Shown one piece after another: positions 8,944 to 29,514 of a DNA stretch of 51,611 nucleotides. Under the pieces are notes generated by a model. That model worked only from the letters and a program-made list of their open reading frames with translations. It was not told where the DNA came from and ran no database searches. Numbering within the stretch: the first letter of the stretch is position 1; every line of letters starts with the position of its first letter. Position numbers and translations under genes: made by a program. The stretch is from a virus: IMG/VR virus record IMGVR_UViG_3300021976_000021, positions 1-51,611 of that record; one strand, written 5' to 3'.

Positions 8944-8961
8944 CATTACTCCTTTGTAGTA

Positions 8962-8990
8962 TCTCATTACAGGGCTTGTAGAAGCTGCGA
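8962..8990 (-). promoter_or_regulatory. TCGCA-N14-TRTAAT element (8.97 kb)
   Basis: The minus strand carries TCGCA, 14 bases, then TGTAATGAGA. The element begins one base after the stop of gene 8991-9260 and ends about 18 bases before the next start, so an RNA beginning just after TGTAAT would have a short leader holding only the ribosome site. The ACA-AGCCC-TGT core is a partial palindrome. Confidence 0.65.
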
Positions 8991-9260
8991 TCACTCCCAG
9001 GTAGTACGTCCGTTGGCGTGCATACCCATGTGCTTCCCAGTCACCTGATCGACCTCACGCTCACAGCGGACCTCAATCAAGATCTTCTTCATAGGGTCAC
9101 CATTCACCACCGTCCTGGCAGCGCAGACCTTCTTCTCAGCAAGACATGCGAAAAGCAAGTCAACAGGCACGGCTACATACGGAATACGCAACTCTTGAGC
9201 GTCCAAAGCTCGAGCTGTCATTTCATCTCGAGGGTCTGTGTAGTTAACACCGTTATACAT
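8991..9260 (-). CDS. Hypothetical protein (89 residues)
   Basis: Starts MYNGVNYTDPRDEMTARALD, with GGAAGG 8 bases upstream. An alpha/beta domain is likely (IPYVAVPVDLLFACLAEKKV, then ILIEVRCEREVDQ). Not recognised. It ends in TGA directly beside the repeat element at 8962-8990. A strong hairpin at 9302-9324 lies 42 bases upstream of the start. Confidence 0.5.
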   Translation of the reverse strand: MYNGVNYTDPRDEMTARALDAQELRIPYVAVPVDLLFACLAEKKVCAARTVVNGDPMKKILIEVRCEREVDQVTGKHMGMHANGRTTWE

Positions 9261-9301
9261 TCGTTTTTCCTTCCAATTTTTTATAAACATAGTAAGGTTG
9301 C

Positions 9302-9324
9302 CTCCGGGCTTGCCAGGCCCGGAG
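9302..9324. other. Strong GC hairpin in leader
   Basis: ctccgggc and gcccggag form a perfect 8-base stem with a 7-base loop. No T-run follows on the minus strand, so it is more likely a leader hairpin or RNA stabiliser for gene 8991-9260 than a terminator. The surrounding 9261-9392 holds no convincing gene. Confidence 0.4.
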
Positions 9325-9392
9325 TAGCGTCTACTTTTTGGCACCCCGCAAGGTGTAGACATTGGAGCAACCCCTCATCCTCAGACGAGATC

Positions 9393-9569
9393 TTACAACT
9401 TGTCCCCGGATAGAGTTCGGCCATCTATCACGAAGAAATCAGACATTGCGAACAGTCCTGGGAACTCCCCATGTTCTGATCTGTAATGCCGATACATCCA
9501 ATCGTTGGCGTTCGTAGCCGAGTAAAACGCCTTTTCTGATGTGCATGCTTTGCATGTGACGACGGTCAT
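9393..9569 (-). CDS. Small CxxC protein (58 residues)
   Basis: MTVVTCKACTSEKAFYSATN starts a 58-residue protein with one CxxC near the N terminus and an aromatic middle (NDWMYRHYRSEHG). It overlaps the stop of the preceding gene by ATGA and has GGGGA just upstream. The histidines after the CxxC (RHYRSEH) suggest a single C2H2-like zinc site. Function unknown. Confidence 0.55.
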   Translation of the reverse strand: MTVVTCKACTSEKAFYSATNANDWMYRHYRSEHGEFPGLFAMSDFFVIDGRTLSGDKL

Positions 9570-9865
9570 TTCGTCCCCAGATAGCTAAGCCACGAAATTG
9601 TTCGATAGTACTGAGAAACGACCTCTTTCGCTGCGTTTCGACTATATCCGTAGTGTCCTTGGCTCATTCCGTTTTTGGCGTACGGAGACGACTGAGGCGC
9701 ATACATAGTTAATCGCAACGTTCTATACTGCCGGCGAGCAGCACACTTGTCCTCAACCGATAGATCGGTATCGAAGAGGTTGAGCTTGTTGCGGAAGTCT
9801 CCGGTGGGAAGACTCTTGGACGTCTTGATACCAGAGAAATCCACTTTGATTCTTTCGTCTGCCAT
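9566..9865 (-). CDS. Hypothetical basic protein (99 residues)
   Basis: MADERIKVDFSGIKTSKSLP begins a soluble basic protein with a helical, Arg/Tyr-rich middle (KCAARRQYRTLRLTMY). The ATG shares its A with the stop of the preceding gene. It may be DNA-binding by charge, but no motif was recognised. Confidence 0.5.
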   Translation of the reverse strand: MADERIKVDFSGIKTSKSLPTGDFRNKLNLFDTDLSVEDKCAARRQYRTLRLTMYAPQSSPYAKNGMSQGHYGYSRNAAKEVVSQYYRTISWLSYLGTK

Positions 9866-10065
9866 CACTTGATTCCCTCGATCTCGAAACACCGACAACG
9901 ATTCGGATTGTGGTTCAGCAGATCATGAAGCTGCCGGCGACCAGGTGTCAACCGACTGAGTCGATCCTGTAGAAGCAAACGCTCTTGCTCCTTGACGATC
10001 GCACGAGACTCTTCGTCAAGCATTCTCTGCTTCTGCTCCCAAGAGATGTTGTGTTGCTGTTTCAT
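9865..10065 (-). CDS. Small helical protein (66 residues)
   Basis: MKQQHNISWEQKQRMLDEES starts a highly charged, probably coiled-coil protein (EQERLLLQDRLSRLTPGRRQL) that ends in a short Cys pair (CRCFEIEG). AAGGAG stands before the ATG. It is the first gene after the RNA-rich stretch at 10.1-10.77 kb and heads a coupled run of three genes. Confidence 0.5.
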   Translation of the reverse strand: MKQQHNISWEQKQRMLDEESRAIVKEQERLLLQDRLSRLTPGRRQLHDLLNHNPNRCRCFEIEGIK

Positions 10066-10419
10066 TATTTCTCCTTTTTATTAGTTGGGTCGATTGGTAG
10101 GGCGGCCTGACGCACCGGGGAGTGCTACAGACTGTAAGAGCTCAAACACGCAGGGTATGGCGAGTAGCCTGCTGCGAATCATTAGCGCCCTAAAGAAATT
10201 GCTGGAAAAGAGTGCAGAAAGTCTAGTCCCTCTAAACTCTCTCCCAGCGTCCTTCGTTCTCAGATCTCACCTGAGATTGGCTCATGGAATGTGAGATACA
10301 TCCACGTCCTCCTTCCGGACCACGGGGCCGAAGACTAACACGAAGCGGTTTTTTATTTGGCTGCCAATCATCTTGTAGATCAGTCTAGATGAAGTTCTGT
10401 GTTATCCTTCACAGTTCAC
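10066..10419. other. Gene-poor stretch
   Basis: No gene of ordinary length on either strand. A 13-codon frame at 10260-10301 (minus) has an excellent AGGAGG 6 bases before its ATG and could be a leader peptide. Around 10322-10365 the plus strand has a T-run after a GC-rich patch, without a good stem. Nothing else was recognised. Confidence 0.35.
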
Positions 10420-10501
10420 GTAGTGGATAGGTGGGAATCGAACCCCACATTACCATAATACCGTCGTATCATGCAGAGCTTGTCCAAAAGCTATCCACTA
10501 C
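10420..10501 (-). ncRNA. tRNA-like cloverleaf
   Basis: The minus strand begins GTAGTGGATAG and ends CTATCCACTAC, a perfect 11-base closing stem. Inside are three hairpins: a D-arm-like CTT/AAG, an anticodon-arm-like arm with an 8-base or shorter loop (ATGAT...ATTAT), and a T-arm-like GTGGG/CCCAC whose loop carries GTTCGATT, matching the tRNA B-box GGTTCGATTCC. It departs from real tRNA in the long acceptor, the missing bases 8-9, an 8-base T loop and no readable anticodon. It may be a degenerate tRNA, a tRNA mimic or a recombination remnant. It directly follows the 20-base repeat at 10502. Confidence 0.5.
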
Positions 10502-10521
10502 CGCTCTGAGCCTAAGGGCTA
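10502..10521 (-). repeat. 20-base repeat, copy 1
   Basis: cgctctgagcctaagggcta, identical to 10692-10711. With cgctcagacga at 10530-10540 it can form the stem CTGAGC/GCTCAG in the minus-strand RNA, and it contains the smaller hairpin AGCC-CTTA-GGCT. It overlaps the stop codon of the 29-residue frame. Confidence 0.65.
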
Positions 10522-10608
10522 TTTAACGTCGCTCAGACGACGAGGCCTTTTTTGGTTAATGTCTATCTTGCCTAGGACAGGTCTTGGGGTCTTTAGCCCC
10601 ATCCGCAT
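10519..10608 (-). CDS. Small basic peptide (29 residues)
   Basis: A 29-codon frame, MRMGLKTPRPVLGKIDINQK and a basic end, preceded by GGGAGGTGATC 4 bases before the ATG, an almost perfect match to the 3' end of 16S rRNA. The stop falls in the 20-base repeat. The ribosome site is the best in this stretch, so translation is plausible. The product is strongly basic and may bind RNA or DNA; no homologue known to me. Confidence 0.45.
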   Translation of the reverse strand: MRMGLKTPRPVLGKIDINQKRPRRLSDVK

Positions 10609-10621
10609 TTAGATCACCTCC

Positions 10622-10691
10622 CTTTCACATAAGCACCACAGTGGTACACACGGCCACTGTCTGCTCCTACTTGGGCGTTCACACCGCCCAA
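10622..10691 (-). ncRNA. Two-hairpin leader RNA
   Basis: On the minus strand TTGGGCG-GTGTGAA-CGCCCAA (7-base stem) and CAGTGG-CCGTGTGTA-CCACTG (6-base stem) follow each other, then the GGAGGTGATC ribosome site of the 29-residue frame. The layout is that of a structured 5' leader that could control access to the ribosome site; ligand or partner unknown. Confidence 0.4.
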
Positions 10692-10711
10692 CGCTCTGAG
10701 CCTAAGGGCTA
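10692..10711 (-). repeat. 20-base repeat, copy 2
   Basis: Second copy of cgctctgagcctaagggcta. Its partner cgctcagacga is at 10756-10766, just after the stop of the lysozyme-like gene. Between them the minus strand holds two more stems (CCGTG/CACGG and ACGTGTCA/TGACACGT). Both copies thus sit at the 3' end of a reading frame. Confidence 0.65.
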
Positions 10712-10769
10712 CGTGTCATTGACACGTCCGTGCACTTCACACCACGGTTTATACTCGCTCAGACGAGTT

Positions 10770-11252
10770 CTACCCAAACACCCCAGGCGGCAGCCCCATC
10801 ACTGATCGATACGACCGCATTCCGTCAAAGCATGTCTTGATGAATTTGTCGTAGGCACCGGATGTGTATCCCGTCCAGAGCTCCCAGTTATACTGCCACC
10901 CAATGTCGACACGATTAATGATCTTCCACACATGTTCCCATGCTTCGAACGGATCGAAACAATCCTTGCGTGAGATTGTTCCGATACCCGGATATGGCTC
11001 GTTGTCCACATTCGCATACTCGTTGAGTTGGAACATACCGAGATCAATCGTCAAGTGGTAACTCTGGTTAGCTGGGTTCCAATTCGCATCACTGCATCGT
11101 CGAGGTTTTGCCCCTGACTCAGCGAACACAACAGCGGCACCAGTGATGGGCCGCCAATCATCCGGAGACATGTAGCCCGGCTGACACAACAAGGCAATGA
11201 CGTTCTCAGGTGTCCATGTAGCAACGTCTGAGGCCGGGAATGAATATGGCAT
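10770..11252 (-). CDS. Lysozyme-like transglycosylase
   Basis: A 160-residue protein of the lysozyme/SLT fold: AVVFAESGAKP with the catalytic Glu at 45, then DLGMFQLNE, the active-site strand of transglycosylases, and a helical remainder with WEHVWKI and WTGYTSGAY. No signal peptide or cell-wall-binding module. AGGAG is placed 5 bases before the ATG. It lies in an envelope-directed group with a surface protein and an SGNH hydrolase, so it may act in lysis next to the M15 endolysin (46271-46990), or locally in wall remodelling. Family assignment is good; the role is inferred. Confidence 0.75.
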   Translation of the reverse strand: MPYSFPASDVATWTPENVIALLCQPGYMSPDDWRPITGAAVVFAESGAKPRRCSDANWNPANQSYHLTIDLGMFQLNEYANVDNEPYPGIGTISRKDCFDPFEAWEHVWKIINRVDIGWQYNWELWTGYTSGAYDKFIKTCFDGMRSYRSVMGLPPGVFG

Positions 11253-11270
11253 TATGTCTCCTGATTGGTT

Positions 11271-12008
11271 CTAGCGCTTGTTGTTATGAGAAATCACGAA
11301 GCAAAGCCCGCCCAAGAAGAGAGCGACACAACCGAGGTAGACAACCATCCACGTCGGCAGACCCGTCTCAGGAAGACTCTCCGCCATTGGCAGAACGCAG
11401 CCGTCCTCAGACTCTGTGCCGGGTGGAGCATCACAAGGATTACTCGGCGTCTCTGGCGTGGGCGACGAGAGTCCTGGCAGCACGGATGACTGTGGCGCTG
11501 GTGGTGTGCTTGTATCGGTCAAGGTAGTCGAGGGCGCTGACAAGATCGTCGAAGTCGTGTCGAGCGACAAGCTTGTCGTGGGATCGCTTTGGGGTACGGA
11601 GGACGTGCTTGACGTCGTCTCCGGGGTTGTCGTCGAAGACGTTGTGCTTGTTGATGTCGTTGCCTCCGTAGTAGTGGTGGTCGGTTCCTCGATAACACAG
11701 TCTCCTGTGCCTGAGAATGGACCGGTGTTGCCGTTCTCCCACATCGCAGTACCACTCAGATCCTCACCTGCGTAGTCAACCTCAACGTGAGGAGTGCCGA
11801 GACCGCCGATGACGGTTGCCCCAGCCTGATCGAAGCTGACGATGCTTGTGATCGCGAGCTCCGGATCCCAGCTGACGATGACCCACGTGTTGGAGGCAGC
11901 GCCAGTCGAGACACAGAAAGCATCTGCGTGATGTGCAGAAGCCTTGTTGGAGATGACTCCAACGGTGATCACCACAAGAGTGGCGATGAGTAGCAATTTC
12001 TTTTTCAT
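11271..12008 (-). CDS. LPXTG-anchored surface protein
   Basis: A 245-residue protein with all parts of a sortase substrate: signal peptide (1-25, cleavage after KASA), a folded region (26-108) with Cys at 32 and 104, a Ser/Thr/Pro-rich stalk (109-190), LPETG at 212-216, a membrane span (219-240) and the basic tail SHNNKR. Host sortase would link it to the peptidoglycan of the infected cell. Phage genes of this kind are uncommon; superinfection exclusion, receptor masking or altered adhesion are possible roles but are inference. It stands between the lysozyme-like gene and the secreted SGNH hydrolase. The Thr-rich codons give a repetitive DNA stretch. Confidence 0.8.
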   Translation of the reverse strand: MKKKLLLIATLVVITVGVISNKASAHHADAFCVSTGAASNTWVIVSWDPELAITSIVSFDQAGATVIGGLGTPHVEVDYAGEDLSGTAMWENGNTGPFSGTGDCVIEEPTTTTTEATTSTSTTSSTTTPETTSSTSSVPQSDPTTSLSLDTTSTILSAPSTTLTDTSTPPAPQSSVLPGLSSPTPETPSNPCDAPPGTESEDGCVLPMAESLPETGLPTWMVVYLGCVALFLGGLCFVISHNNKR

Positions 12009-12019
12009 TTCATTTCTTT

Positions 12020-12637
12020 CTAGTTGTTTGTTGTTGTGTAAATCATTGAGGCAAGCACAGCCGCCCCAGTTTCGTTCGGATGCACTCCATCAGTCGTCAG
12101 AGTCGTCGACGCTGCCGATACGACAGAGCCCCACTCAATCAACTGATGACACGGCTGTTGTGGCACAATATCACGCAGAACCTGCACGACAGCGTCCGTA
12201 ACCGTTTGATAATCGCCACCAACCCAAGGAATAACCCAGGCGAGGCAACGATCGTCCGGCAACATCTCAACCGTTGTCAAAACGAAGGCTTTGTAGTCCT
12301 CGATTGACACGGCTGAGACGATATCGTTTGTACCGATCTCCATGACCAACCACCCATCGACAGGGATTGACGGAGCGAACTGTGTGACGGCCTCGAGACC
12401 AGTCCCATAGTCACCCCAACCCTCGACGTACCAGTCAGGAGTGCCGTAGCCAGCAATCACGCTGCCACGGCCGTTGTGTGCGTTCACGATGCCGTTGGGA
12501 TAGAACCCTCGAGCGTTGTGAATGATTGAATCGCCTATGATGACGATCGACGCAGCTTGAGGTGCCGCATGAGATCTCGATGCGAAGAAGGCCAAGGTGG
12601 TAAGGATCACCGAGAGCATTAACATTATTTTCTTCAT
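12020..12637 (-). CDS. Secreted SGNH hydrolase
   Basis: A 205-residue protein with an N-terminal signal peptide (MKKIMLMLSVILTTLAFFAS) and the SGNH/GDSL blocks: GDS with nucleophile Ser37, a Gly block, GTND (102-105) and DGVHP with Asp183 and His186. Such enzymes cleave ester bonds, for example acetyl groups on surface glycans or lipids. The start at 12637 is set by AAAGGAAAG upstream and by the TAATG overlap with the preceding small gene. It is predicted to be exported to the envelope of the infected cell, unlike the SGNH domain in the tail fibre, which acts from the virion. Confidence 0.78.
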   Translation of the reverse strand: MKKIMLMLSVILTTLAFFASRSHAAPQAASIVIIGDSIIHNARGFYPNGIVNAHNGRGSVIAGYGTPDWYVEGWGDYGTGLEAVTQFAPSIPVDGWLVMEIGTNDIVSAVSIEDYKAFVLTTVEMLPDDRCLAWVIPWVGGDYQTVTDAVVQVLRDIVPQQPCHQLIEWGSVVSAASTTLTTDGVHPNETGAAVLASMIYTTTNN

Positions 12638-12765
12638 TACTTTCCTTTGGTTTGATTCAGTTCTTTGAGACACGCCTTCATACCGAAGTATGAGATAGCT
12701 GCAATGCTTCCTACGAAGGAAACGAACATACCGAGGCCCAGTGCTATTCCAATTGCAACATCCAT
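12637..12765 (-). CDS. Small membrane protein (42 residues)
   Basis: MDVAIGIALGLGMFVSFVGS begins a 42-residue protein with one membrane span over residues 2-27 and a basic tail. AAAGGAG lies before the ATG, and its stop overlaps the start of the SGNH hydrolase (TAATG), so the two are translationally coupled. It may be a holin-like or partner membrane protein of the envelope module. Confidence 0.6.
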   Translation of the reverse strand: MDVAIGIALGLGMFVSFVGSIAAISYFGMKACLKELNQTKGK

Positions 12766-12820
12766 TATTTCTCCTTTGTTATGAGGGTTCCACTCTCGCA
12801 GTCACCCACAACCATCGATC

Positions 12821-12909
12821 ACAAAAACAAAATGAGAAGGATTAGTCTTTTCTCGTTAATACGAGGTCTTGACTGGTTTGTAGCTCGAGAGCCATTACCT
12901 TCCTTCTCA
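12821..12909 (-). ncRNA. Structured small RNA A
   Basis: Immediately after the TGTAAT of the element at 12905, the minus strand starts TGAGAAGG, which pairs with CCTTCTCA about 60 bases on; this is followed by TTTTGTTTTT. The RNA would thus be closed by a stem whose 3' arm is also a terminator. A 5-base hairpin (CTCGT/ACGAG) lies inside. A 17-codon frame (12842-12895) with GAAGGAAGG before its ATG ends just before the 3' arm, so a peptide is an alternative reading. Confidence 0.5.
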
Positions 12910-12934
12910 TTACAGGGCTTGTAATTCTTGCGAG
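12905..12934 (-). promoter_or_regulatory. TCGCA-N14-TRTAAT element (12.92 kb)
   Basis: Minus strand CTCGCAAGAATTACAAGCCC then TGTAATGAGA. ATTACA-AGCCC-TGTAAT is a perfect 6-base palindrome around a 5-base centre. The element contains the last codons and stop of gene 12910-13149 and precedes small RNA A. Confidence 0.7.
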
Positions 12935-13149
12935 CCTTCGGGTTTCGATGGTTTGGTTCTCACCCAGATCGGACCATCAACTGTTTCTATTACAGCACCA
13001 TGGTCATCTATCTCTAGGACTGGTAAAGAATCGACATCTATCTTTCCGCAGTCACACTGATGAAACGAACTATGCCCTGCTTCTTTGTTGCATACATGCC
13101 CAGAATGCCATTGACGATGGCAACCGCATTTCGACGTTGAATTATTCAT
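12910..13149 (-). CDS. Cys/His-rich hypothetical protein
   Basis: A 79-residue protein from MNNSTSKCGCH, coupled by ATGA to the gene before it. The first half has C8, C10, C20 and later CDC with several His (CHRQWHSGHVC, GHSSFHQCDC), compatible with one or two zinc sites; the second half looks like a small beta domain. The last seven residues are encoded by the repeat element, so the C terminus may be dictated by that element. Confidence 0.5.
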   Translation of the reverse strand: MNNSTSKCGCHRQWHSGHVCNKEAGHSSFHQCDCGKIDVDSLPVLEIDDHGAVIETVDGPIWVRTKPSKPEGSQELQAL

Positions 13150-13436
13150 CCTTCGATCCACCCGAGTCGGAGATCTTTGTCTTGTGTGCACACATGCCCG
13201 TTCGGACACTTTGGGATGGCAAACATATATAGAGGGAAGTCTGCTTTCATACCAGTCCATTCTCCATTGACGCAGGTAACTTTGGCAAAACGATCTCCGA
13301 TGTTGAACAATACGACCTTCATGGAAACATCGAGTGGTTCATGCGGAAACATTTTGCTTCGAGCATCAAGCGCGTCGATAATCATCGCTGCATCCTCGAG
13401 ACGTAACGCCGTCCCTGGTTCTGGATTCGTGGTCAT
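13146..13436 (-). CDS. Hypothetical protein (96 residues)
   Basis: MTTNPEPGTALRLEDAAMII begins a soluble protein with a predicted beta-rich centre (DVSMKVVLFNIGDRFAKVTC) and two cysteines near the end (CPNGHVC). It overlaps both neighbours by 4 bases. Not recognised. Confidence 0.5.
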   Translation of the reverse strand: MTTNPEPGTALRLEDAAMIIDALDARSKMFPHEPLDVSMKVVLFNIGDRFAKVTCVNGEWTGMKADFPLYMFAIPKCPNGHVCTQDKDLRLGWIEG

Positions 13437-13792
13437 GACTCTACTGCGACCTCCACGAAAGTCTTTGCGTCAGGATGCTCGAATAGCAAATCCGGTTCGC
13501 CGGCGTTCACGAATTCAACCCACGTGCTGAGCTGCGGTGTTAACTTGGTGAATTGCTCGGCAAAAAGCTTCGGCGTGTAGCAACGAAGATGATCTCCCAT
13601 CCGGGTGAAGAAATACCCGGGGAAGACTCGATACACACTCGGGACGAGCTTTCGATCGACTAGAATAAACGGCGTACCATCGCCCTTCGCCTTCAACTCT
13701 CCTACATGCTTGGCGATCTCTCCGATGTTTTCGGTTGTGATCTCGATTGCCTCTACCACGAATGGCTTACGGACAAATTTCTGAAATTCCAT
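13433..13792 (-). CDS. PGDYG-like small phage protein, paralogue 1
   Basis: A 119-residue protein. The pattern KPFVVEAIEITTENIGEIAK at the start, then a beta stretch and an ending FAEQFTKLTPQL, resembles the phage family with the order VEA..., GD-W-I..., F...F (PGDYG-like). The paralogue at 14239-14577 fits this family better. Function is unknown; such genes are widespread in phage early regions. Confidence 0.5.
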   Translation of the reverse strand: MEFQKFVRKPFVVEAIEITTENIGEIAKHVGELKAKGDGTPFILVDRKLVPSVYRVFPGYFFTRMGDHLRCYTPKLFAEQFTKLTPQLSTWVEFVNAGEPDLLFEHPDAKTFVEVAVES

Positions 13793-13797
13793 TTTGA

Positions 13798-14016
13798 TTA
13801 CTTCCTTTTGTTATTCGAGGCGTTAGCAAGAAGCCTTCGCACATCTTTTGCTAGTTCCACGTATCCGTCGCTCTCGACCGTGTTAGCCCAAACTAACAAG
13901 GCCGGCCAAGAGTTAGGATCGTCGAATGGGAGAACTACACATCCTTGTGGTATGCTCTTTCCATCTTTCCGAAAGACTTCGTACTTCGGGTACAGACCGA
14001 GTTCTTTGTCATCCAT
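13798..14016 (-). CDS. Hypothetical protein (72 residues)
   Basis: MDDKELGLYPKYEVFRKDGK, then CVVLPFDDPNSWPALLVWAN, gives a small domain often seen in phages (a Y-V-x-R-x-DG strand, VL-x-D-P and a helical end). The role is unknown. It is separated from its neighbours by only 5 and 26 bases. Confidence 0.5.
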   Translation of the reverse strand: MDDKELGLYPKYEVFRKDGKSIPQGCVVLPFDDPNSWPALLVWANTVESDGYVELAKDVRRLLANASNNKRK

Positions 14017-14042
14017 TAATATTATTCCTTTTTGTTATGTCT

Positions 14043-14246
14043 CTACCAAAGGGTAGGGGCGGCGTTGACTGGTACTACCATCTCAGGCATGATGACAAAA
14101 GCGCTTGCGCGCAGCTCATCAACAGCCAAAGCAAGAGTGGTATTTGTGATCGCCCCAGATAACTTTCCACCATCCACTTCGACAGTTCCGACTAGTCTTC
14201 GTTCACCATTTGAGTCGTACATGACTAGTGGGACTTGCTTACTCAT
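14043..14246 (-). CDS. Hypothetical protein (67 residues)
   Basis: MSKQVPLVMYDSNGERRLVG starts a small beta-rich protein resembling the short sequences in phages that follow a modified-residue pattern (VGTVEVDGGKLSGAI). No function known. It overlaps the gene before it by 8 bases. Confidence 0.5.
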   Translation of the reverse strand: MSKQVPLVMYDSNGERRLVGTVEVDGGKLSGAITNTTLALAVDELRASAFVIMPEMVVPVNAAPTLW

Positions 14247-16027: not shown

Positions 16028-16032
16028 TTTTA

Positions 16033-19788: not shown

Positions 19789-19801
19789 TGGAGCCCCCTT
19801 T

Positions 19802-20335: not shown

Positions 20336-20337
20336 GG

Positions 20338-21324: not shown

Positions 21325-21333
21325 GATTCCTTC

Positions 21334-22188: not shown

Positions 22189-22839
22189 TCAGATTTCCTC
22201 TGTTGGTGGAAGGTCAAGCACATACCCGTCACGGGCTTGCCTGATCTCGGCGTTGACCAAACTGATCCAACCCCATTTGTTGTCGATTGCTGATGTGGGC
22301 AGACCCATCAGTTGGTAAAGATCTGCCAAAGATGCGATCTCGTACTTGTCAACGATGTCATTAAGACGCTCGAGCACTAGCTCAGCTTCTTCTCTCGATG
22401 CAAGAACGAATTCGTTCGTATCCCTTCGTACCTGTCGCATTGTTGAATGCGCAGGCTGGTTTGGCAAATATGCATGATCTCGCCGAGCTATTGGGTTGTT
22501 GTACTGGATTCGAGACCCGTAGCCCACCGTCCGGCGGCGCTGAGCCGACGATTCACCGTAGACCACTCGCTCGATGCCTTTGGACGTTGTGTCCACGAGC
22601 AAATTCCGAAGAGCCGGCAAAAGCACATCTGCTGCGATATACCTTGCCGCTCCTTTGAGCTCTCCTCCAAAGAAAATGCCCTTGAACTTCTGCCCAACAG
22701 ACTTCTTCTTTTGAACGACTTCTCCAGTCACAACCTTTTCGATGGTCTTGTTAGCCAGAGCTTCTGCCTTCTCTTTTTGCTTATGGCTATTGCCGTGGGT
22801 GCTTTGATACTTGAGTGGATCACGTTCGTCGGGCATCAA
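22189..22839 (-). CDS. Hypothetical protein of the membrane set
   Basis: A 216-residue protein with a basic N-terminal half (KKKSVGQKFKGIFFGGELKG, an amphipathic helix with AARYIAADVLLPALRNLL), a basic linker and a C-terminal helical domain (EEAELVLERLNDIVDKYEIA, LADLYQLMG). It shares no base with the following membrane gene but abuts it. Families with this architecture occur in Gram-positive phages next to the same neighbours; function unknown. Confidence 0.55.
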   Translation of the reverse strand: MMPDERDPLKYQSTHGNSHKQKEKAEALANKTIEKVVTGEVVQKKKSVGQKFKGIFFGGELKGAARYIAADVLLPALRNLLVDTTSKGIERVVYGESSAQRRRTVGYGSRIQYNNPIARRDHAYLPNQPAHSTMRQVRRDTNEFVLASREEAELVLERLNDIVDKYEIASLADLYQLMGLPTSAIDNKWGWISLVNAEIRQARDGYVLDLPPTEEI

Positions 22840-23447
22840 CCCTCCATTCCTGCATCAGAGCGAGGCACAAGAGTCACGCCAGGAGGCGCAACTTGTGGCA
22901 CGAACGCGGTTGACGGTCCTTGAGGACCAGCTCCATGGTCAAATCCACCAGGGGTAGTCTGTGGTCCAACCGGTCCTTGAACGCCGAGACCCCACTCAGA
23001 TCCCTGTTGGGAACGGAGATTCTCTGCCGGCTGAATATTCGGAGGCGTGAGAAGCGCAGTTTTGTCAGCCTGAGCGATCGCTTCCTGCATGTCCTTTGGC
23101 ATGATACCCTTGACGAACGTGACAAGAACGTCTTGGTTCGACATCATCTCAATCAGAAGCGAATCGAACGCCGCCGTTTGTGAAAATGCTTCACGAGCTT
23201 CAGGGGATTTGATGAACCGCTTCCCATCTTCAGACTTCTCACCGTACGAAAGCAAGACGATTCGCTTGAACTCTTCGTAGATGGCTTCGTTGTCCTGGGT
23301 CTTGGAGACCTTCTTGATCCAACCGTCGAGCCCACCGTCGTGGCCGAGCTCTAGTTTGACGATCTCAGACTTCATGAGGTTGAAGTAGAAAGTTTCAGTA
23401 ACCTCGTTGTCGTCGAAATCCGTGTATGTAATTGGTCGCTTGAGCAT
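22836..23447 (-). CDS. Tail-assembly-chaperone-like protein
   Basis: A 203-residue protein. The N-terminal two thirds (ITYTDFDDNEVTETFYFNLM, then EAFSQTAAFDSLLIEMM) match a phage protein type often annotated as tail assembly chaperone. The C-terminal third is Gly/Pro-rich and collagen-like (GVQGPVGPQTTPGGFD). It sits far from the tail genes, and a separate chaperone candidate is at 37479-38027, so its true role may differ. AAGGAAAG lies before the ATG. Confidence 0.5.
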   Translation of the reverse strand: MLKRPITYTDFDDNEVTETFYFNLMKSEIVKLELGHDGGLDGWIKKVSKTQDNEAIYEEFKRIVLLSYGEKSEDGKRFIKSPEAREAFSQTAAFDSLLIEMMSNQDVLVTFVKGIMPKDMQEAIAQADKTALLTPPNIQPAENLRSQQGSEWGLGVQGPVGPQTTPGGFDHGAGPQGPSTAFVPQVAPPGVTLVPRSDAGMEG

Positions 23448-23470
23448 TTTTCTTTCCTTTTAATTGAATT

Positions 23471-23504
23471 GGACAAAGAGAAAGCCCTTGTGGGGGCCTT
23501 CTCT
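23471..23504 (-). terminator. Rho-independent terminator
   Basis: Minus strand AGAGAAGGCCC - CCACAA - GGGCTTTCTCT, an 11-base stem with one G-T pair, then TTGTCC. It closes the one-gene unit 23509-23685. Confidence 0.8.
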
Positions 23505-23508
23505 CTTA

Positions 23509-23685
23509 CTACTGCTCGTTCGCAGTGGTGTTGATGGTCTGTGCACGCGCCTTTGCGCTGTAGTACCCCTTCTCGACGAGGGTGCCCACCACCAAACCAG
23601 CGATTGCGCTGATAACGGTGACGGCGAACCTGTCCTTCAGGGATGGCACAACGGGGGCGTGTGTGACTTCGACTGTATCTTCCAT
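23509..23685 (-). CDS. Small one-span membrane protein (cassette gene)
   Basis: A 58-residue protein: polar N terminus, hydrophobic span FAVTVISAIAGLVVGTLV (20-37), short polar tail. AAGGAG lies just before the ATG. The repeat element at 23706-23735 is 20 bases upstream and the terminator is right after the stop, so it is an independent unit. Confidence 0.6.
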   Translation of the reverse strand: MEDTVEVTHAPVVPSLKDRFAVTVISAIAGLVVGTLVEKGYYSAKARAQTINTTANEQ

Positions 23686-23705
23686 TGTCTTCTCCTTGAG
23701 TAGTA

Positions 23706-23735
23706 TCTCATTACAGGGCTTGTTTTTCTTGCGAG
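23706..23735 (-). promoter_or_regulatory. TCGCA-N14-TRTAAT element (23.7 kb)
   Basis: Minus strand CTCGCAAGAAAAACAAGCCC then TGTAATGAGA. It begins directly after the stop of gene 23736-24134 and precedes the 58-residue membrane gene. Confidence 0.7.
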
Positions 23736-24134
23736 CTAGTCGAGAAAACCAAGTCTTTCGAAATGATACCCACCAGCATTATCAAGGATACCATTGAGAT
23801 GTCTTGACATAACCGTTTTGTGAATACCAAAGTTCGTTGCCGCTTCTCCTTGAGACAGAAAGAAATCGCCTGTTTCCAAACAACGAATAATATAGCCCGG
23901 ATGGCCTCGGCCTTCTCGTTGGATAACAGTGACAACGGTTTGTTTGTTAGACAAAATTGAAAGAGGGCGCACGGTAACTTTTTCAAGTCCATCCGAAGCG
24001 GCATCGCCTACTCCGGCGTGTCGCCCTCTCATTATAAGCACAGTAATTCCTGCGACTACAACTCCTGTAGCGACACAAGAATATGTAATTTTGTGCTCTC
24101 GCAGGTGTTGTTTAACGGACTGAACCTTACTCAT
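23736..24134 (-). CDS. Membrane-tethered NUMOD1-like protein, copy 1
   Basis: A 132-residue protein: one hydrophobic span near the N terminus (YSCVATGVVVAGITVLIM, 18-35) and, at the C-terminal end, a NUMOD1-like DNA-binding module (LSQGEAATNFGIHKTVMSRH). NUMOD1 normally belongs to homing endonucleases, but no nuclease domain is present. A related protein with the same layout is at 25664-26002. A copy of the repeat element (24027-24055) falls inside the coding sequence of the span. Confidence 0.55.
   Translation of the reverse strand: MSKVQSVKQHLREHKITYSCVATGVVVAGITVLIMRGRHAGVGDAASDGLEKVTVRPLSILSNKQTVVTVIQREGRGHPGYIIRCLETGDFFLSQGEAATNFGIHKTVMSRHLNGILDNAGGYHFERLGFLD
24027..24055 (-). promoter_or_regulatory. 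TCGCA-N14-TRTAAT element inside a gene (24.04 kb)
   Basis: Minus strand TCGCAGGAATTACTGTGCT then TATAATGAGAG, within codons for VAGITVLIMRGR of gene 23736-24134. The spacing is the same as in the intergenic copies. If active, it would start an RNA at or near an internal ATG and could give a soluble form without the membrane span; chance similarity through coding is the alternative. Confidence 0.45.
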
Positions 24135-24153
24135 TACTTCCTTTATTGAATAT

Positions 24154-24882
24154 CTATCGCACGCCGTCGTATAACGGTCGATGGTAGTTGTAGTTGAACG
24201 AAAGGCATGGACGTCCGTCTTCTGCCAATACTGTCGAAAACTCCAACTCCATGAGTTTGTCTGAGTTCCAACCGTAGTCAGAGGAGAACTCTGTCGGTTG
24301 AAGACTAATCATGTAGTACCATTCTTCGAATGACACCCAATCCTGTCTCAGAAGCATTGCGTTGAGTTCGTTCTGAGCCTTTCGAAGCGACTCCATGTCA
24401 CTCTGGAAATATCGACCTGTGTACAACTCACAACAAAGCACGTTGCCCGGACCAACGATCACGACCTCTGACGATGGCGGATTCGCTCGCACTCGATCCT
24501 GGGCAATGGACGCTCTGATCTTTTCGTCCTTCTTCTCACCGAATTCCTCGATGACCTTGTCTCGGTATTCGGAATATGCACGTTCGGTCAAGACGAAGGC
24601 TGCTTGTGCCGCCATTGCCCGCTTGTTACCGACCTTCGCAATGCCGATAATGCATGCAGAAGTTACTACTCCTGAAGCAATCGCTGGAATATAGAGTTTC
24701 CAGACACGCTTCGCCTGTTCTTTTAGTGGCTCATCTCGATGGCCAAACAGTTCTTCGTGGGCGTTGACTGCTGCTTTGCCAGTCAAAAACGCGGTGGCTG
24801 CAACTCCGGATATAGCCGTCGAAGACAGAATCGTCGTTGAATTCTTCTTCACCGTGTGCAGGATGGTATTAACCAACTTCAC
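24154..24882 (-). CDS. Two-span membrane protein, phage family, paralogue 2
   Basis: A 242-residue protein with spans at about 16-35 (STTILSSTAISGVAATAFLT) and 64-85 (YIPAIASGVVTSACIIGIAK), then AYSEYRDKVIEEFGEKKDEK and a C-terminal domain (EEWYYMISLQPTEFSSDYGW). It has the same domain order as 21334-22188 and is shorter by about 40 residues. It overlaps the preceding gene by 14 bases. Function unknown; duplication within the phage is likely. Confidence 0.6.
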   Translation of the reverse strand: MKLVNTILHTVKKNSTTILSSTAISGVAATAFLTGKAAVNAHEELFGHRDEPLKEQAKRVWKLYIPAIASGVVTSACIIGIAKVGNKRAMAAQAAFVLTERAYSEYRDKVIEEFGEKKDEKIRASIAQDRVRANPPSSEVVIVGPGNVLCCELYTGRYFQSDMESLRKAQNELNAMLLRQDWVSFEEWYYMISLQPTEFSSDYGWNSDKLMELEFSTVLAEDGRPCLSFNYNYHRPLYDGVR

Positions 24883-25207
24883 TGAAACCCACCCTTGCTT
24901 CCATAGCAGCCATATGCGGACGTGTTACGCCGGCAGCATATGAGATACGCACCATAGGCACGTCGGTCTGCTGCCAATCCGATCCGTGATGTTCGTTCCA
25001 ACCAGTAAATACCTTTGTCTGATTCTCTGGCTTGCTCAGCCACTTGTAGATATTATGCAGATCCCCCTGATTCAGATCACCGTAGCCGAAGGACGTCCTG
25101 TCATAATCGAATGACCACCACAGATTCTTGTAGACATAGCCGCTTCGGATCTGGCTGGTCTTGAAGCCAAACTGCAGACACAGTTCCTTGTCAGTCTTGT
25201 GAATCAC
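24869..25207 (-). CDS. Hypothetical protein (112 residues)
   Basis: MIHKTDKELCLQFGFKTSQI starts a soluble, aromatic protein (YKNLWWSFDYDRTSFGYGDL). It overlaps the preceding zinc-finger gene by 4 bases and the following membrane gene by 14. Not recognised. Confidence 0.5.
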   Translation of the reverse strand: MIHKTDKELCLQFGFKTSQIRSGYVYKNLWWSFDYDRTSFGYGDLNQGDLHNIYKWLSKPENQTKVFTGWNEHHGSDWQQTDVPMVRISYAAGVTRPHMAAMEARVGFSEVG

Positions 25208-25380
25208 GCGTTTGCTCCTGACTCAAATACGAAATGCTTATTAAGAATGTGTTGAACAGGAAATTCTTTCTCTTGTATCGGAAGGTGATGCTTTCGATAG
25301 TGATGCTCAGCAGACGCCTTTGCGTCTAGGTCTCGACTAGCTTTGTCAAACCACCCGCAATGCTTGCATGTAACTCTCAT
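25204..25380 (-). CDS. Small C2H2-type zinc finger protein
   Basis: A 58-residue protein with CKHCGWF at the start and HHYRKHH about 16 residues later, a C2H2-like arrangement that could bind one zinc ion and DNA or RNA. The ATG at 25380 overlaps the preceding stop (TAATG). A longer frame to 25428 has no ribosome site. Confidence 0.55.
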   Translation of the reverse strand: MRVTCKHCGWFDKASRDLDAKASAEHHYRKHHLPIQEKEFPVQHILNKHFVFESGANA

Positions 25381-25502
25381 TATTGCCTCATTTCCCTTAC
25401 ATATATCCAAATTAGCCAGAACCCGCATGTGAAGATCGTCATGAGGACGTCCACAATGAAGTTCATGGCGCCGTACCGCCTTGGGTATCGGTTAGTATAC
25501 AT
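25380..25502 (-). CDS. Small membrane protein (40 residues)
   Basis: Begins MYTNRYPRRYGAMNFIVDVL and carries one span over about residues 15-35 (FIVDVLMTIFTCGFWLIWIY). AAGGAG is 4 bases before the ATG. Its stop overlaps the next start by one base. It directly follows small RNA B and its T-rich tail. Confidence 0.55.
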   Translation of the reverse strand: MYTNRYPRRYGAMNFIVDVLMTIFTCGFWLIWIYVREMRQ

Positions 25503-25577
25503 TATTCTCCTTGATTAGATGCTGAAAAGAAAATGAGAAGATACTTGTCAGTCTCCGCATAACGGTGGCTGAGCCGG

Positions 25578-25594
25578 TCTCCCCTAACAGGGTG
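25578..25594. repeat. 17-base direct repeat in RNA B, copy 1
   Basis: tctcccctaacagggtg; identical to 25605-25621. Each copy is a self-complementary hairpin in the RNA. Confidence 0.7.
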
Positions 25595-25604
25595 GCCATG
25601 CAAA

Positions 25605-25621
25605 TCTCCCCTAACAGGGTG
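25605..25621. repeat. 17-base direct repeat in RNA B, copy 2
   Basis: Second copy of tctcccctaacagggtg, exactly 27 bases after the first. It may be a tandem binding site for a protein or RNA. Confidence 0.7.
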
Positions 25622-25633
25622 ATCCAAATATCT

Positions 25634-25663
25634 TCTCATTACAGGGCTTGTTTTTCTTGCGAG
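25634..25663 (-). promoter_or_regulatory. TCGCA-N14-TRTAAT element (25.65 kb)
   Basis: Minus strand CTCGCAAGAAAAACAAGCCC then TGTAATGAGA, identical to the copy at 23706 over its whole length. It lies directly after the stop of gene 25664-26002 and runs into small RNA B. Confidence 0.7.
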
Positions 25664-26002
25664 CTATGCGGGTTGAAGAGTTTCGAAGATATCTCCATGT
25701 ACATTCGCGATATGCCCATTGACATTCTTCGAAATGCTGCTAAGACTATGGCCCGTCTTTCTCGCTGCATCGTGTAAACTGTCGAAATACAAATTAGTAC
25801 CGACAAGATGCACGGGTTTACTTGGCGTGGACTTCTCTACCAAATTGATGATCATCTGGTTCGATTCATTCCGGAATCCGATCTGCCTGACGCTTTGCAT
25901 ACTTCCCTTATCGTTTCGACCGAGGATGACCCCGATCACAAGACATGATCCACAAGCAATGTAGACACGCTTGTGCTTCTTGATGTGTCCTTTGATGTTC
26001 AT
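25664..26002 (-). CDS. Membrane-tethered NUMOD1-like protein, copy 2
   Basis: A 112-residue protein: basic start (MNIKGHIKKHKR), one span (VYIACGSCLVIGVILG), a strand (QMIINLVEKST) and a C-terminal NUMOD1-like helix pair (SLHDAARKTGHSLSSISKNV). Same layout as 23736-24134, 1.9 kb away. The ATG at 26002 overlaps the stop of the preceding gene (ATGA); an ATG two codons earlier is also possible. Confidence 0.55.
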   Translation of the reverse strand: MNIKGHIKKHKRVYIACGSCLVIGVILGRNDKGSMQSVRQIGFRNESNQMIINLVEKSTPSKPVHLVGTNLYFDSLHDAARKTGHSLSSISKNVNGHIANVHGDIFETLQPA

Positions 26003-26280
26003 CGACATTCCCGTTCCATGATGTCGATCTTGGCGAGAGTCAGACCAGCACTGTCTCGTACTTCACCATCTTGCATCAATTCGAACGCCTCCGCATGATC
26101 ATCGACCATGAGGAATACGTCACAAATGAGATCTTTCTCCTCAGGGGAAAGTTCTCGCCAGTCTTCTTGCGCTTGCTCGTCTTCCTCGATCGTAGGACGT
26201 GCACCATTGTCAAGCGACAAGATCACGAACGTGATCATTGCCGCAAACGCCAAAGCCAAAGCTATAGCTAACTTATTCAT
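25999..26280 (-). CDS. Small membrane or secreted acidic protein
   Basis: A 93-residue protein with a hydrophobic N-terminal segment (MNKLAIALALAFAAMITFVI) that is a signal anchor or signal peptide, followed by an acidic helical domain (EEDEQAQEDWRELSPEEKDL, DDHAEAFELM). AAGGAG lies before the ATG. It is the first gene after small RNA C. Not recognised. Confidence 0.55.
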   Translation of the reverse strand: MNKLAIALALAFAAMITFVILSLDNGARPTIEEDEQAQEDWRELSPEEKDLICDVFLMVDDHAEAFELMQDGEVRDSAGLTLAKIDIMERECR

Positions 26281-26300
26281 TATTGCTCCTTGTTTGTTGA

Positions 26301-26400
26301 AAGAAAAAAATGAGAAGCTGGGCCAAGATCAACTGTATTGCTACCAGCCTCGTTGGTAGTTAGCGATTGATCTCCGTGTTCTGTTAGAACCTTCTTCTCA
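26301..26400 (-). ncRNA. Structured small RNA C
   Basis: After TATAG of the element at 26396, the minus strand runs TGAGAAG ... CTTCTCA then TTTTTTTC (7-base closing stem). Inside: GTTCT-AAC-AGAAC, AGATCAA/TTGATCT, and within the latter CTACCA/TGGTAG, all perfect stems. There is no ATG or GTG frame, so the RNA is non-coding. It is not a tRNA, since no T-loop is present. It lies between two coding cassettes and is terminated by its own 3' arm. Confidence 0.6.
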
Positions 26401-26425
26401 CTATAGCCCTAGTAATTCCTGCGAG
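26396..26425 (-). promoter_or_regulatory. TCGCA-N14-TRTAAT element (26.41 kb)
   Basis: Minus strand CTCGCAGGAATTACTAGGGC then TATAGTGAGA; the last hexamer has one change (TATAGT). It follows the terminator of the next unit and drives into small RNA C. Confidence 0.65.
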
Positions 26426-26428
26426 GAG

Positions 26429-26461
26429 ACAAAGAGAAAGGCACAACGCTGTGTCTTTCTC
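26429..26461 (-). terminator. Rho-independent terminator
   Basis: Minus strand GAGAAAGACAC - AGCGTT - GTGCCTTTCTC, 11-base stem with one mismatch, then TTTGTC. Closes the unit 26469-26642. Confidence 0.75.
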
Positions 26462-26468
26462 AGTTGGG

Positions 26469-26642
26469 TTAACGGTGATTGACTTTGTAGTCGATCTGCC
26501 GTGCGTAAGCCCGACGACCCTGTGCCGCACTCATCGCATCGATCAGCTTCGCTGCAGCTGTAACTGCTAACGTGCCGACGATGATGGTCGTCACGGGATC
26601 TTCGTTGAACTTCCGCTTGAGCTTTTCAATTCCTTGTTTCAT
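26469..26642 (-). CDS. Small one-span membrane protein (cassette gene)
   Basis: A 57-residue protein starting MKQGIEKLKRKFNEDPVTTI; span VTTIIVGTLAVTAAAKLI (17-34); basic tail. AGGAGG lies 7 bases before the ATG at 26642, and the TATAAT of the element is adjacent to AGGAGG, giving a leader of only about 15 bases. A longer frame from 26696 would read through the element and is rejected. Confidence 0.6.
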   Translation of the reverse strand: MKQGIEKLKRKFNEDPVTTIIVGTLAVTAAAKLIDAMSAAQGRRAYARQIDYKVNHR

Positions 26643-26650
26643 TTCGTTTC

Positions 26651-26680
26651 CTCCTATTATAAGGGTTGTAATTTTTGCGA
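26651..26680 (-). promoter_or_regulatory. TCGCA-N14-TRTAAT element (26.67 kb)
   Basis: Minus strand TCGCAAAAATTACAACCCT then TATAATAGGAGG: the element runs directly into the ribosome site of the next gene. The TCGCA starts where the T-run of the previous terminator ends. Confidence 0.7.
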
Positions 26681-26709
26681 CAAAACTCAAACCCATTGTT
26701 GGGCTTGAG
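26681..26709 (-). terminator. Rho-independent terminator
   Basis: Minus strand CTCAAGCCCA - ACAA - TGGGTTTGAG, 10-base stem, then TTTTG. It lies 8 bases after the stop of gene 26718-26915. Confidence 0.8.
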
Positions 26710-26717
26710 CTAATTGA

Positions 26718-26915
26718 TCAGTATTTTCCGTCGTAGTTGTTCTTCACAATGCCGACGAATTGTTCATCGATCACGCTCTTGTTGTGAATATCGACCAGCT
26801 TTTGTACCGTGTCATTGACTTTCCCAATTTTCCAATTGAGTTCAGCGTATTTCATGGCAACGTAGCTTGCCGTCATCACACCCATAAGGGCGATGATCTT
26901 TTGCTTTTCGTTCAT
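26718..26915 (-). CDS. Small one-span membrane protein (cassette gene)
   Basis: A 65-residue protein; MNEKQKIIALMGVMTASYVA gives a short span (7-22), followed by a helical amphipathic part (WKIGKVNDTVQKLVDIH). AAGGA stands before the ATG, and the element at 26942-26970 is about 30 bases upstream. Function unknown. Confidence 0.55.
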   Translation of the reverse strand: MNEKQKIIALMGVMTASYVAMKYAELNWKIGKVNDTVQKLVDIHNKSVIDEQFVGIVKNNYDGKY

Positions 26916-26941
26916 TTATAAGAATCCTTTCGTTCATTACT

Positions 26942-26970
26942 TCTCATTACAGGGCTTGTCAGATATGCGA
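26942..26970 (-). promoter_or_regulatory. TCGCA-N14-TRTAAT element (26.96 kb)
   Basis: Minus strand CTCGCATATCTGACAAGCCC then TGTAATGAGA. Same spacing as the other copies; only the middle TTACA is changed to TGACA. Confidence 0.65.
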
Positions 26971-26971
26971 G

Positions 26972-27003
26972 GAGAAAGAGAAAGCACTCGTGTGCTCTCT
27001 CCT
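26972..27003 (-). terminator. Rho-independent terminator
   Basis: Minus strand AGAGAGCAC - ACGAG - TGCTTTCTCT, then TTCTCC leading straight into the TCGCA of the next element. Closes unit 27009-27224. Confidence 0.7.
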
Positions 27004-27008
27004 GTGGT

Positions 27009-27224
27009 TTACGCTTGTGGGTTCTTTGCGTTCTCGATCATTACCTGACGGACCGTGTCCAGCACCACGAAGGCAGCAACTGCGATTGCAACGTTGCGAA
27101 CCACTGCCTTCAAATGGAACGATGTGACGTTCATTTTCTGGGCGAATGTTTCGCGCGGTGTGTTTTCACTGTCCTGCGACTTCGGGGGCTTGACAAGGCC
27201 AATCTGAATCTTTCGATTAAACAT
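27009..27224 (-). CDS. Small one-span membrane protein (cassette gene)
   Basis: A 71-residue protein: basic start (MFNRKIQIGLVKPPKSQD), a helical linker, span VAIAVAAFVVLDTVRQVM near the C terminus. AAGGAG lies before the ATG. It is followed by a terminator and preceded by the element at 27245-27273. Confidence 0.55.
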   Translation of the reverse strand: MFNRKIQIGLVKPPKSQDSENTPRETFAQKMNVTSFHLKAVVRNVAIAVAAFVVLDTVRQVMIENAKNPQA

Positions 27225-27244
27225 TATTATCTCCTTGTAGTATT

Positions 27245-27273
27245 CCTCATTATAAGCCCTGTAATTTATGCGA
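27245..27273 (-). promoter_or_regulatory. TCGCA-N14-TRTAAT element (27.26 kb)
   Basis: Minus strand TCGCATAAATTACAGGGCT then TATAATGAGG. The centre AATTACAGGGCTTATAAT is a near palindrome. It lies 20 bases upstream of the start of 27009-27224. Confidence 0.7.
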
Positions 27274-27483
27274 ATTGTTTGTGGGAATCTTCCTCCCGGG
27301 CAATTTTTGGGTCAAAAAGGCCTATTTTACACGAATTGGCCCTTCTGCTTCGTTCTGAGACGTTTACCCCCTATTCCGGTATAAAGATACCATTTGGCAT
27401 CTGAACAACGCTTAGAGCGAACCACAGACACTAGTTTTTTTCTAAAAAGGCAAAATTTTAGTAGCACTTGTAAAATATGCGAG
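27274..27483 (-). ncRNA. Gene-free interval with a possible fourth small RNA
   Basis: About 210 bases without a gene. At its upstream end (27462-27483) a degenerate element reads TCGCATATTTTACAAGTGCT without a good TRTAAT. Downstream are the hairpin GGTAT-CTTT-ATACC and AAGGGCC...GGCCTTTTTG, a weak terminator. An RNA of roughly 140 bases is possible; evidence is weaker than for RNAs A to C. Confidence 0.3.
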
Positions 27484-27532
27484 GACAAACAGAGAGGCCA
27501 CACGGATTGTTAGTCCTATGTAGCCTCTCTGC
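27484..27532 (-). terminator. Long-stem terminator
   Basis: Minus strand CAGAGAGGC...GCCTCTCTG, an extended stem of about 16 bases with a few mismatches, then TTTGTCC before the TCGCA of the degenerate element. It lies about 30 bases after the stop of gene 27563-27850. Confidence 0.75.
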
Positions 27533-27562
27533 CTTCGTTACACACTCGGTTAGTGTGAACGG

Positions 27563-27850
27563 CTATTTCGCTCTGAGAATGAACCCCATTGCCTTCGACG
27601 TCATGACATGCCTCTGTTCGTATGCGACGATCACGAGGATGCCGAACAAGTTCCCCAGAACCATGGCCATCGTATCTGGGCTAACTCGATCTTGGCTCGT
27701 TAAAACCTTCATCTTCGTCAGCCTGTCCAGATAGTCCATTGCTGCTGCGAACTCACTCGCATCCACGCTGTATTCGCGCAACTCGTCCAGAACCTTGTCA
27801 ATCGGTTCGTCGTACTTGGCGTGCTCATTCCTTCGGTTTATGCCGAACAT
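27563..27850 (-). CDS. Small membrane protein (cassette gene, 95 residues)
   Basis: Starts MFGINRRNEHAKYDEPIDKV; a soluble helical part (ELREYSVDASEFAAAMDYLD) and a C-terminal hydrophobic span (MAMVLGNLFGILVIVAY). AAAGGG lies before the ATG at 27850; the frame is open to 27919, but that would read through the element. Confidence 0.55.
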   Translation of the reverse strand: MFGINRRNEHAKYDEPIDKVLDELREYSVDASEFAAAMDYLDRLTKMKVLTSQDRVSPDTMAMVLGNLFGILVIVAYEQRHVMTSKAMGFILRAK

Positions 27851-27870
27851 GATTACCCTTTCGTAGTGTT

Positions 27871-27899
27871 TCTCATTATAGGGCCTGTAGTTCGTGCGA
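27871..27899 (-). promoter_or_regulatory. TCGCA-N14-TRTAAT element (27.88 kb)
   Basis: Minus strand GTCGCACGAACTACAGGCCC then TATAATGAGA. It begins immediately after the TAG of the gene 27900-28016 and marks the border between the late structural operon and the cassette region. Confidence 0.7.
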
Positions 27900-29512: not shown

Positions 29513-29514
29513 GA

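Follow-up and report, generated by a model that had tools for sequence, protein, structure and literature searches.

A repeated one-strand element as the likely promoter of a phage-encoded single-chain RNA polymerase

The element and the polymerase gene in the window

The window considered here is a virus record of 51.6 kb (IMG/VR record IMGVR_UViG_3300021976_000021, positions 1 to 51,611), with its genes on the minus strand and distant similarity to Gordonia phages. It encodes a single-chain RNA polymerase, and it carries repeated copies of a short element, TCGCA-N14-TRTAAT, that is likely to be the promoter read by this polymerase. Six of the sites in the window lie directly before small open reading frames (ORFs) and four before closed short RNAs. 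The sites, the predicted RNAs and the genes of the polymerase operon are listed below in order along the minus strand, each element being given with the bases that follow its box.

27875-27899, minus strand: candidate promoter element TCGCACGAACTACAGGCCCTATAAT followed by GAG; predicted RNA start at 27874; ORF 27563-27850 starts 24 nucleotides (nt) downstream
27249-27273, minus strand: candidate promoter element TCGCATAAATTACAGGGCTTATAAT followed by GAG; ORF 27009-27224 starts 24 nt downstream
26946-26970, minus strand: candidate promoter element TCGCATATCTGACAAGCCCTGTAAT followed by GAG; ORF 26718-26915 starts 30 nt downstream
26656-26680, minus strand: candidate promoter element TCGCAAAAATTACAACCCTTATAAT followed by AGGAGG, a Shine-Dalgarno sequence from the first base past the box; ORF 26469-26642 lies 13 nt downstream
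26400-26424, minus strand: candidate promoter element TCGCAGGAATTACTAGGGCTATAGT followed by GAG; precedes a closed non-coding RNA
26300-26399, minus strand: predicted short RNA, closed by the stem GAGAAG...CUUCUC, with a U-tract; z -3.0; the next ORF is 25999-26280
25638-25662, minus strand: candidate promoter element TCGCAAGAAAAACAAGCCCTGTAAT followed by GAG; precedes a closed non-coding RNA
25524-25637, minus strand: predicted short RNA, closed by the stem GAGAAGAUA...UAUCUUCUC, with a U-tract; z -3.45
24031-24055, minus strand: candidate promoter element TCGCAGGAATTACTGTGCTTATAAT followed by GAG; inside ORF 23736-24134
23950-24030, minus strand: predicted closed hairpin RNA GAGAGGGCG...CGCCCUCUUU, from the first base past the box; z -4.5
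23710-23734, minus strand: candidate promoter element TCGCAAGAAAAACAAGCCCTGTAAT followed by GAG; small ORF 24 nt downstream (ATG at 23685)
12909-12933, minus strand: candidate promoter element TCGCAAGAATTACAAGCCCTGTAAT followed by GAG; precedes a closed non-coding RNA
12822-12908, minus strand: predicted short RNA, closed by the stem GAGAAGGA...UCCUUCUC, with a U-tract; z -2.5
8966-8990, minus strand: candidate promoter element TCGCAGCTTCTACAAGCCCTGTAAT followed by GAG; ORF 8734-8946 starts 19-22 nt downstream
5523-5553, minus strand: weaker variant ACGTAGGTAAAACAATGCTTATAAT followed by AGGAGG (eleventh site), upstream of the exonuclease and RNA polymerase genes
3107-3772, minus strand: Cas4/RecB-like exonuclease, directly upstream of the polymerase gene
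369-3110, minus strand: predicted single-chain double-psi-beta-barrel RNA polymerase of 913 amino acids (PHROG 4291), with a GADFDGD motif and helix-turn-helix (HTH)/sigma-region-4-like domains

The original prediction, made from the letters of the window, described the element as repeated on the minus strand only, and this is borne out. There are nine exact matches to TCGCA-N14-TRTAAT, all on that strand, against 0.03 expected; none of 100 shuffles of the window sequence reached nine, and the tenth copy (26400-26424), also on the minus strand, has the box TATAGT. The predicted sites are real, although their start coordinates were set about four bases too low. The ACA that was said to stand nearly always before a G/C patch occupies positions 12-14 and, like the patch, is present in nearly all copies. 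Three points had been missed: half of the window boxes read TGTAAT, conservation runs on 3' of the box, as GAGA, and there is the weaker site at 5523-5553. A matrix scan of the window at 15 bits or more returned 11 minus-strand sites and one plus-strand site, the latter inside the tape-measure gene, in a repeat that is part of its coding sequence. Copies of this repeat make up two motif-like plus-strand matches, at 31191-31217 and about 31326.

The polymerase matches PHROG 4291, 'RNA-dependent RNA polymerase', over its full length. Its aspartate-triad motif (DxDGD) reads DFDGD in the window, and GADFDGD is invariant in 38 sequences. All 38 relatives match an HTH family, with Pfam Sigma70_r4_2 found in 37, and 15 of the 38 match Pfam RdRP. 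When the predicted structure was compared with the PDB by Foldseek, the best match was QDE-1 (E 1.3e-6, probability 1.00), followed by plant RDR2 and then by beta' subunits of multisubunit RNA polymerases (msRNAP), with low TM-scores; a search of the PDB with the polymerase sequence gave no match. On the strength of the structure model, the window polymerase is a member of the QDE-1/msRNAP superfamily and a distant relative of cellular and RNA-silencing polymerases. Actinophage records mostly label it only 'helix-turn-helix DNA binding domain protein'. In the ReqiPepy6 record the polymerase is compared to a 'structural protein' of phage 1706; the 1706 record now has RNA-dependent RNA polymerase.

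Distribution of the element among phages

A motif search of the genome and of related phages, the check proposed with the original prediction, found one-strand copies in most of the relatives and no instance of the reversed pattern. Thirteen family phage genomes were scanned, from Gordonia, Rhodococcus, Streptomyces, Arthrobacter, Microbacterium, Curtobacterium and Lactococcus hosts plus one saliva phage, and 12 of them carry the element on one strand only. Counts on the polymerase strand and the other strand are 12/0 in Petito, 6/0 in Bilo, 8/0 in Cheesy (Arthrobacter), 8/0 in Camille (Microbacterium), 16/0 in ReqiPepy6 (Rhodococcus), 9/0 in P162, 25/0 in the part of Qui (Arthrobacter) that was scanned, 12/0 in Kardashian (Streptomyces), 7/0 in Pippin15 (Curtobacterium), 7/0 in contig89 and 7/0 in phage 1706; the saliva phage has seven copies and none on the opposite strand. 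The exact pattern gives no match in Cheesy and Camille, but the matrix scan finds the eight copies in each as lineage variants on one strand, TCGCG...TATAAT in Cheesy and TCGCG...TATGGT or TATGAT in Camille.

The association holds in both directions of sampling. Among 36 records picked for encoding the polymerase and not for the motif, 28 contain TCGCA-N14-TRTARTNRG, in every case on a single strand, and no record has the reversed pattern. Cheesy and Camille are two of the eight records that lack an exact match. Fifty IMG/VR contigs were chosen by the motif alone, from among the longest that carry it; 40 encode the polymerase and six of the other ten encode the family DNA primase/polymerase, making 46 of 50 together. 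The reversed pattern has no match in IMG/VR, where a 17-base version of the motif matches at least 120 stretches. The picture in cellular genomes is one of chance occurrence: in 85,000 prokaryote genomes (257 Gb of bacteria and archaea) an 18-base version matched ten stretches, with about seven estimated by chance. At least two of the matching prokaryote genomes look phage-derived, their contigs having been binned into bacterial genomes. A contig of an Acidobacteria metagenome-assembled genome (MAG), QHXL01000552, has four same-strand copies and looks phage-like. The same impression is given by a MAG assigned to Alphaproteobacteria, in which two contigs carry the motif and the family DNA polymerase is encoded.

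The consensus from 410 sites is TCGCA-RRAWWW-ACA-N-GSCY-TATAAT-GAGA, followed by a weaker CCCC, but this logo is biased at TCGCA and TATAAT, which were fixed by the regular expression, and partly at ACA and GAG, which were in the pattern by which many of the loci were fetched. Both ACA and GAG are also seen in records picked by the polymerase alone. Kardashian and Pippin15 have degenerate boxes (TTTAAT, TTAGAT, TACTAT) but keep the purine-rich start behind the box. The Lactococcus phages P162, whose polymerase is 36% identical, and 1706 retain ACA-N5-TATARt-RA, with about 11 copies each of TTTTACA-N5-TATAAT-GARA in P162 and TTTACA-N5-TATAGT-AGA in 1706. In both phages this is the commonest gapped word, recovered without the actinophage model; a de novo count of gapped words in Bilo, where codon-driven words dominate, did not recover the element. 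In the sequences compared, the element goes with the polymerase whatever the host of the phage, and is not tied to the host. Most likely it is a promoter that phages of soil actinobacteria and of Lactococcus share along with the same polymerase.

The structural genes have no site. In 30 of 72 related loci, a variant of the element, AAAACATGGATTATAATAGAAGGG, is found 864-907 bp ahead of the polymerase gene; its counterpart in the window is the site at 5523-5553. Between this weak candidate promoter and the exonuclease and polymerase genes, the window has a collagen-like fibre gene (3926-4810, minus strand), an insertion relative to related phages. The ORF with a copy of the element inside it (23736-24134) and ORF 25664-26008 belong to the same small family, phrog_27818.

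Predicted position of the RNA start

Several kinds of signal downstream of the box bear on where the RNA would begin. At 32 of 390 sites, the 3' arm of an intrinsic terminator, usually 33-117 nt downstream, pairs with the bases from the G directly after the box, while arms ending just before the box paired twice at most. For arms of seven bases, 21 pairings were observed; random re-pairing of arms with downstream sequences (200 rounds) gave 1.4 on average and never more than 5. The paired stems differ in sequence (GAGAAGATA, GAGAGAACTT, GAAAGGTATT and GACACGT, for example) and so are not one inherited copy. In 22 of the 32, pairing could extend by one more base to the final T of the box, so that the start would be either that T or the following G. 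The closing stems of the four window RNAs begin exactly after the box, with z between -2.5 and -4.5.

Translation signals and tRNA genes point to the same position. A start codon that has a Shine-Dalgarno sequence lies 20-34 nt downstream in 257 of the 390 sites. At 11 sites, including 26656-26680 of the window, the Shine-Dalgarno sequence begins no more than six bases from the box, and a start of the sigma-70 type would, to judge from the sequence, partly or wholly lose it. In ReqiPepy6 a tRNA begins 8 nt after a box, and in P162 a tRNA leader of about 8 nt pairs with the trailer from the first base after the box. All told, the first base of the RNA is probably the G next to the box or else the base before that G, a layout like that of T7 promoters and not like that of sigma-70. 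The original prediction had placed starts 4-8 bases after TRTAAT; this is probably wrong, as terminator stems, Shine-Dalgarno placement and tRNA leaders indicate 0-1 base after the box.

Two observations on existing records arose along the way. The tRNA gene of P162 (18674-18740), which lies behind a copy of the element, is unannotated in the record; it was found by Rfam and missed by ARAGORN. In Qui, an annotated coding sequence (CDS) start, for example that of the CDS at 170, falls in the ATG of a conserved leader, GAGAACCCCTATGAAAGG, so that translation probably begins past the AAGG Shine-Dalgarno instead. Comparable start-codon errors are likely in related records.

What reads the element

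Taken together, these observations make it very probable that the element is a promoter of about 30 bp, TCGCA-N6-ACA-N5-TATAAT-GAGA, read by the phage's own single-chain polymerase. A one-direction promoter contacted by one protein surface, and not of the sigma-70 type, had been proposed in the original prediction from the constant spacing; that remains the best-supported reading, and the reader protein, which the prediction did not name, would be the polymerase. The polymerase would bind the upstream TCGCA and ACA through its built-in HTH domains, without a host sigma factor, melt the TATAAT box and begin RNA on the G that follows, or on the base before that G. Its products would be short: transcripts of one small gene or tRNA at a time, or closed non-coding RNAs, often each with a terminator of its own. 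The variant site ahead of its operon suggests self-amplification of the polymerase once some of it is present, and, with no copies at structural genes, the polymerase would serve the small-gene and replication region. The first polymerase molecules would come from host transcription or from the virion, and the operon would then be boosted through the variant promoter copy. Joining all of these steps would give a sigma-independent system: a lone polypeptide from the QDE-1/msRNAP superfamily would read a 30-bp promoter by means of built-in sigma-region-4-like HTH domains, start at the base after TATAAT, possibly be delivered with the virion, and transcribe the small-gene region first before its own operon is amplified. 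As a whole this scheme is tentative and may well prove mistaken.

A number of points weigh against assigning the element to the polymerase, apart from the bias in the logo. The evidence for a polymerase-promoter pair is comparative and comes from sequences. The structure model of the polymerase is of moderate quality (pLDDT 75, pTM 0.52). The phage FP_oengus has a polymerase 43% identical, yet at most two weak variants of the element, and a matrix scan around yonK of phage SPbeta, whose polymerase YonO has a mapped start, found no such element. The stems that mark the predicted start could also form in read-through RNA, so that the case for the start site is a strong inference and not proof. 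Finally, the polymerase and the family DNA polymerase are co-inherited, with about 250 records each in the same hosts. For this reason co-occurrence could not set the polymerase apart from the other core genes of the phages, and association alone cannot exclude another conserved phage protein as reader or helper.

That the sites are instead host promoters of the sigma-70 (SigA) type, with TATAAT as the -10 box and a phage activator on TCGCA, is unlikely. The box is identical to the SigA -10 consensus, an activator could stand in for the missing -35, and the host polymerase must start the first transcripts unless the phage polymerase comes with the virion. That said, no -35 hexamer lies 16-18 nt before the box, TCGCA is 14 nt away, and a sigma-70 scan shows no excess (8 vs 5.7). 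SigA would start about seven bases later, but the conserved GAGA after the box is apparently in the RNA. The A at -11, the base sigma-70 needs most, is G in half of the window sites (TGTAAT) and T in several sites of Pippin15 and Kardashian; three of the seven Pippin15 sites have TTTAAT, and TTTAGT also occurs. The element is at chance level in bacterial genomes and absent from host genomes, yet it persists in Lactococcus phages, and neither a sigma factor nor a known activator turned up among those window proteins that were scanned.

A reading of the element as the DNA-binding site of some other conserved phage protein, such as a repressor, partition or replication factor, gains from the co-inheritance of the family genes, which keeps association from singling out the reader protein, and from other phages in which one-direction repeated intergenic sites serve as operators or start-associated sequences. 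It is nonetheless quite improbable: there is the fixed leader to a start codon with Shine-Dalgarno, as expected of a promoter, terminators pair exactly with the bases behind the box, and sites precede tRNA genes and non-coding RNAs besides protein genes. The element is also asymmetric. An element acting in RNA or in translation, like the start-associated sequences (SAS) of actinophages, would account for the position upstream of small-gene start codons, but it is very improbable. Element and start codon are anywhere between 13 and over 100 nt apart, usually 20-34 nt; in most cases the Shine-Dalgarno stands apart from the element, which does not directly abut the ribosome-binding site and start codon, and some sites precede tRNAs or non-coding RNAs. 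Moreover, an RNA with its predicted start 3' of the element would contain neither TCGCA nor TATAAT.

For a promoter read by a single-chain phage polymerase, the closest known counterpart is YonO of Bacillus phage SPbeta, which starts at phage-specific sites, with a mapped start just before a non-coding RNA; its promoter sequence was not determined, and the promoter of the class and its self-sufficiency were left open (Forrest et al. 2017, PMC5467207). Both are single-chain phage polymerases with the aspartate triad and of the double-psi-beta-barrel class, but YonO belongs to another sequence family. The catalytic segment of the window polymerase matches the YonO family phrog_8308 (E 1.2e-4), while hhalign to a single YonO sequence gave only 6%. 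YonO serves one late operon, whereas the window phage has many sites in its small-gene region. In SPbeta, about 1.6 kb between yonN and yonK (about 29153-30840) is non-coding and seemingly hairpin-rich, and probably holds the mapped YonO start.

T7-type promoters are likewise short and unidirectional, with fixed spacing, an AT-rich box right before the start, a GAGA-like initial sequence and repetition before phage genes, although the start directly after the box and the purine-rich initial sequence are likenesses by inference only. The T7 polymerase fold is unrelated, the window polymerase belonging to PHROG 4291 and not to the T7 family, and promoter sequence and length are unlike, with TCGCA here at about -25. 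The virion RNA polymerase of crAss-like phages and the eukaryotic QDE-1 and RDR2 resemble the window polymerase as single-chain double-psi-beta-barrel enzymes, the latter two being its top structure matches. We know of no sequence promoter with this layout for any of the three. SAS and other intergenic repeats of actinophages are short, run in one direction and stand before small genes (PMC7302621), but they differ in sequence from TCGCA-N14-TRTAAT and occur in other phage clusters. The papers searched on phage clusters AM, AU, EL and CC do not mention the element. It also appears undescribed in the literature on YonO and on Gordonia, Arthrobacter, Microbacterium and Rhodococcus phages, most subscription journals being outside this coverage and a report elsewhere possible.

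The question of the YonO-class promoter becomes directly testable with the candidate promoter defined, the first base of its RNA predicted and natural sequence variants at hand in some dozen phages in culture. If the polymerase does read the element, it would make a compact one-protein expression system unrelated to T7 and a model for sigma-free promoter finding by single-chain relatives of cellular RNA polymerase, and the sites would give a regulon map for a large actinophage group and for lactococcal 1706-type phages. One further feature of the window is a Pistol self-cleaving ribozyme at 10493-10542 on the minus strand, which scores well above the Rfam gathering threshold.

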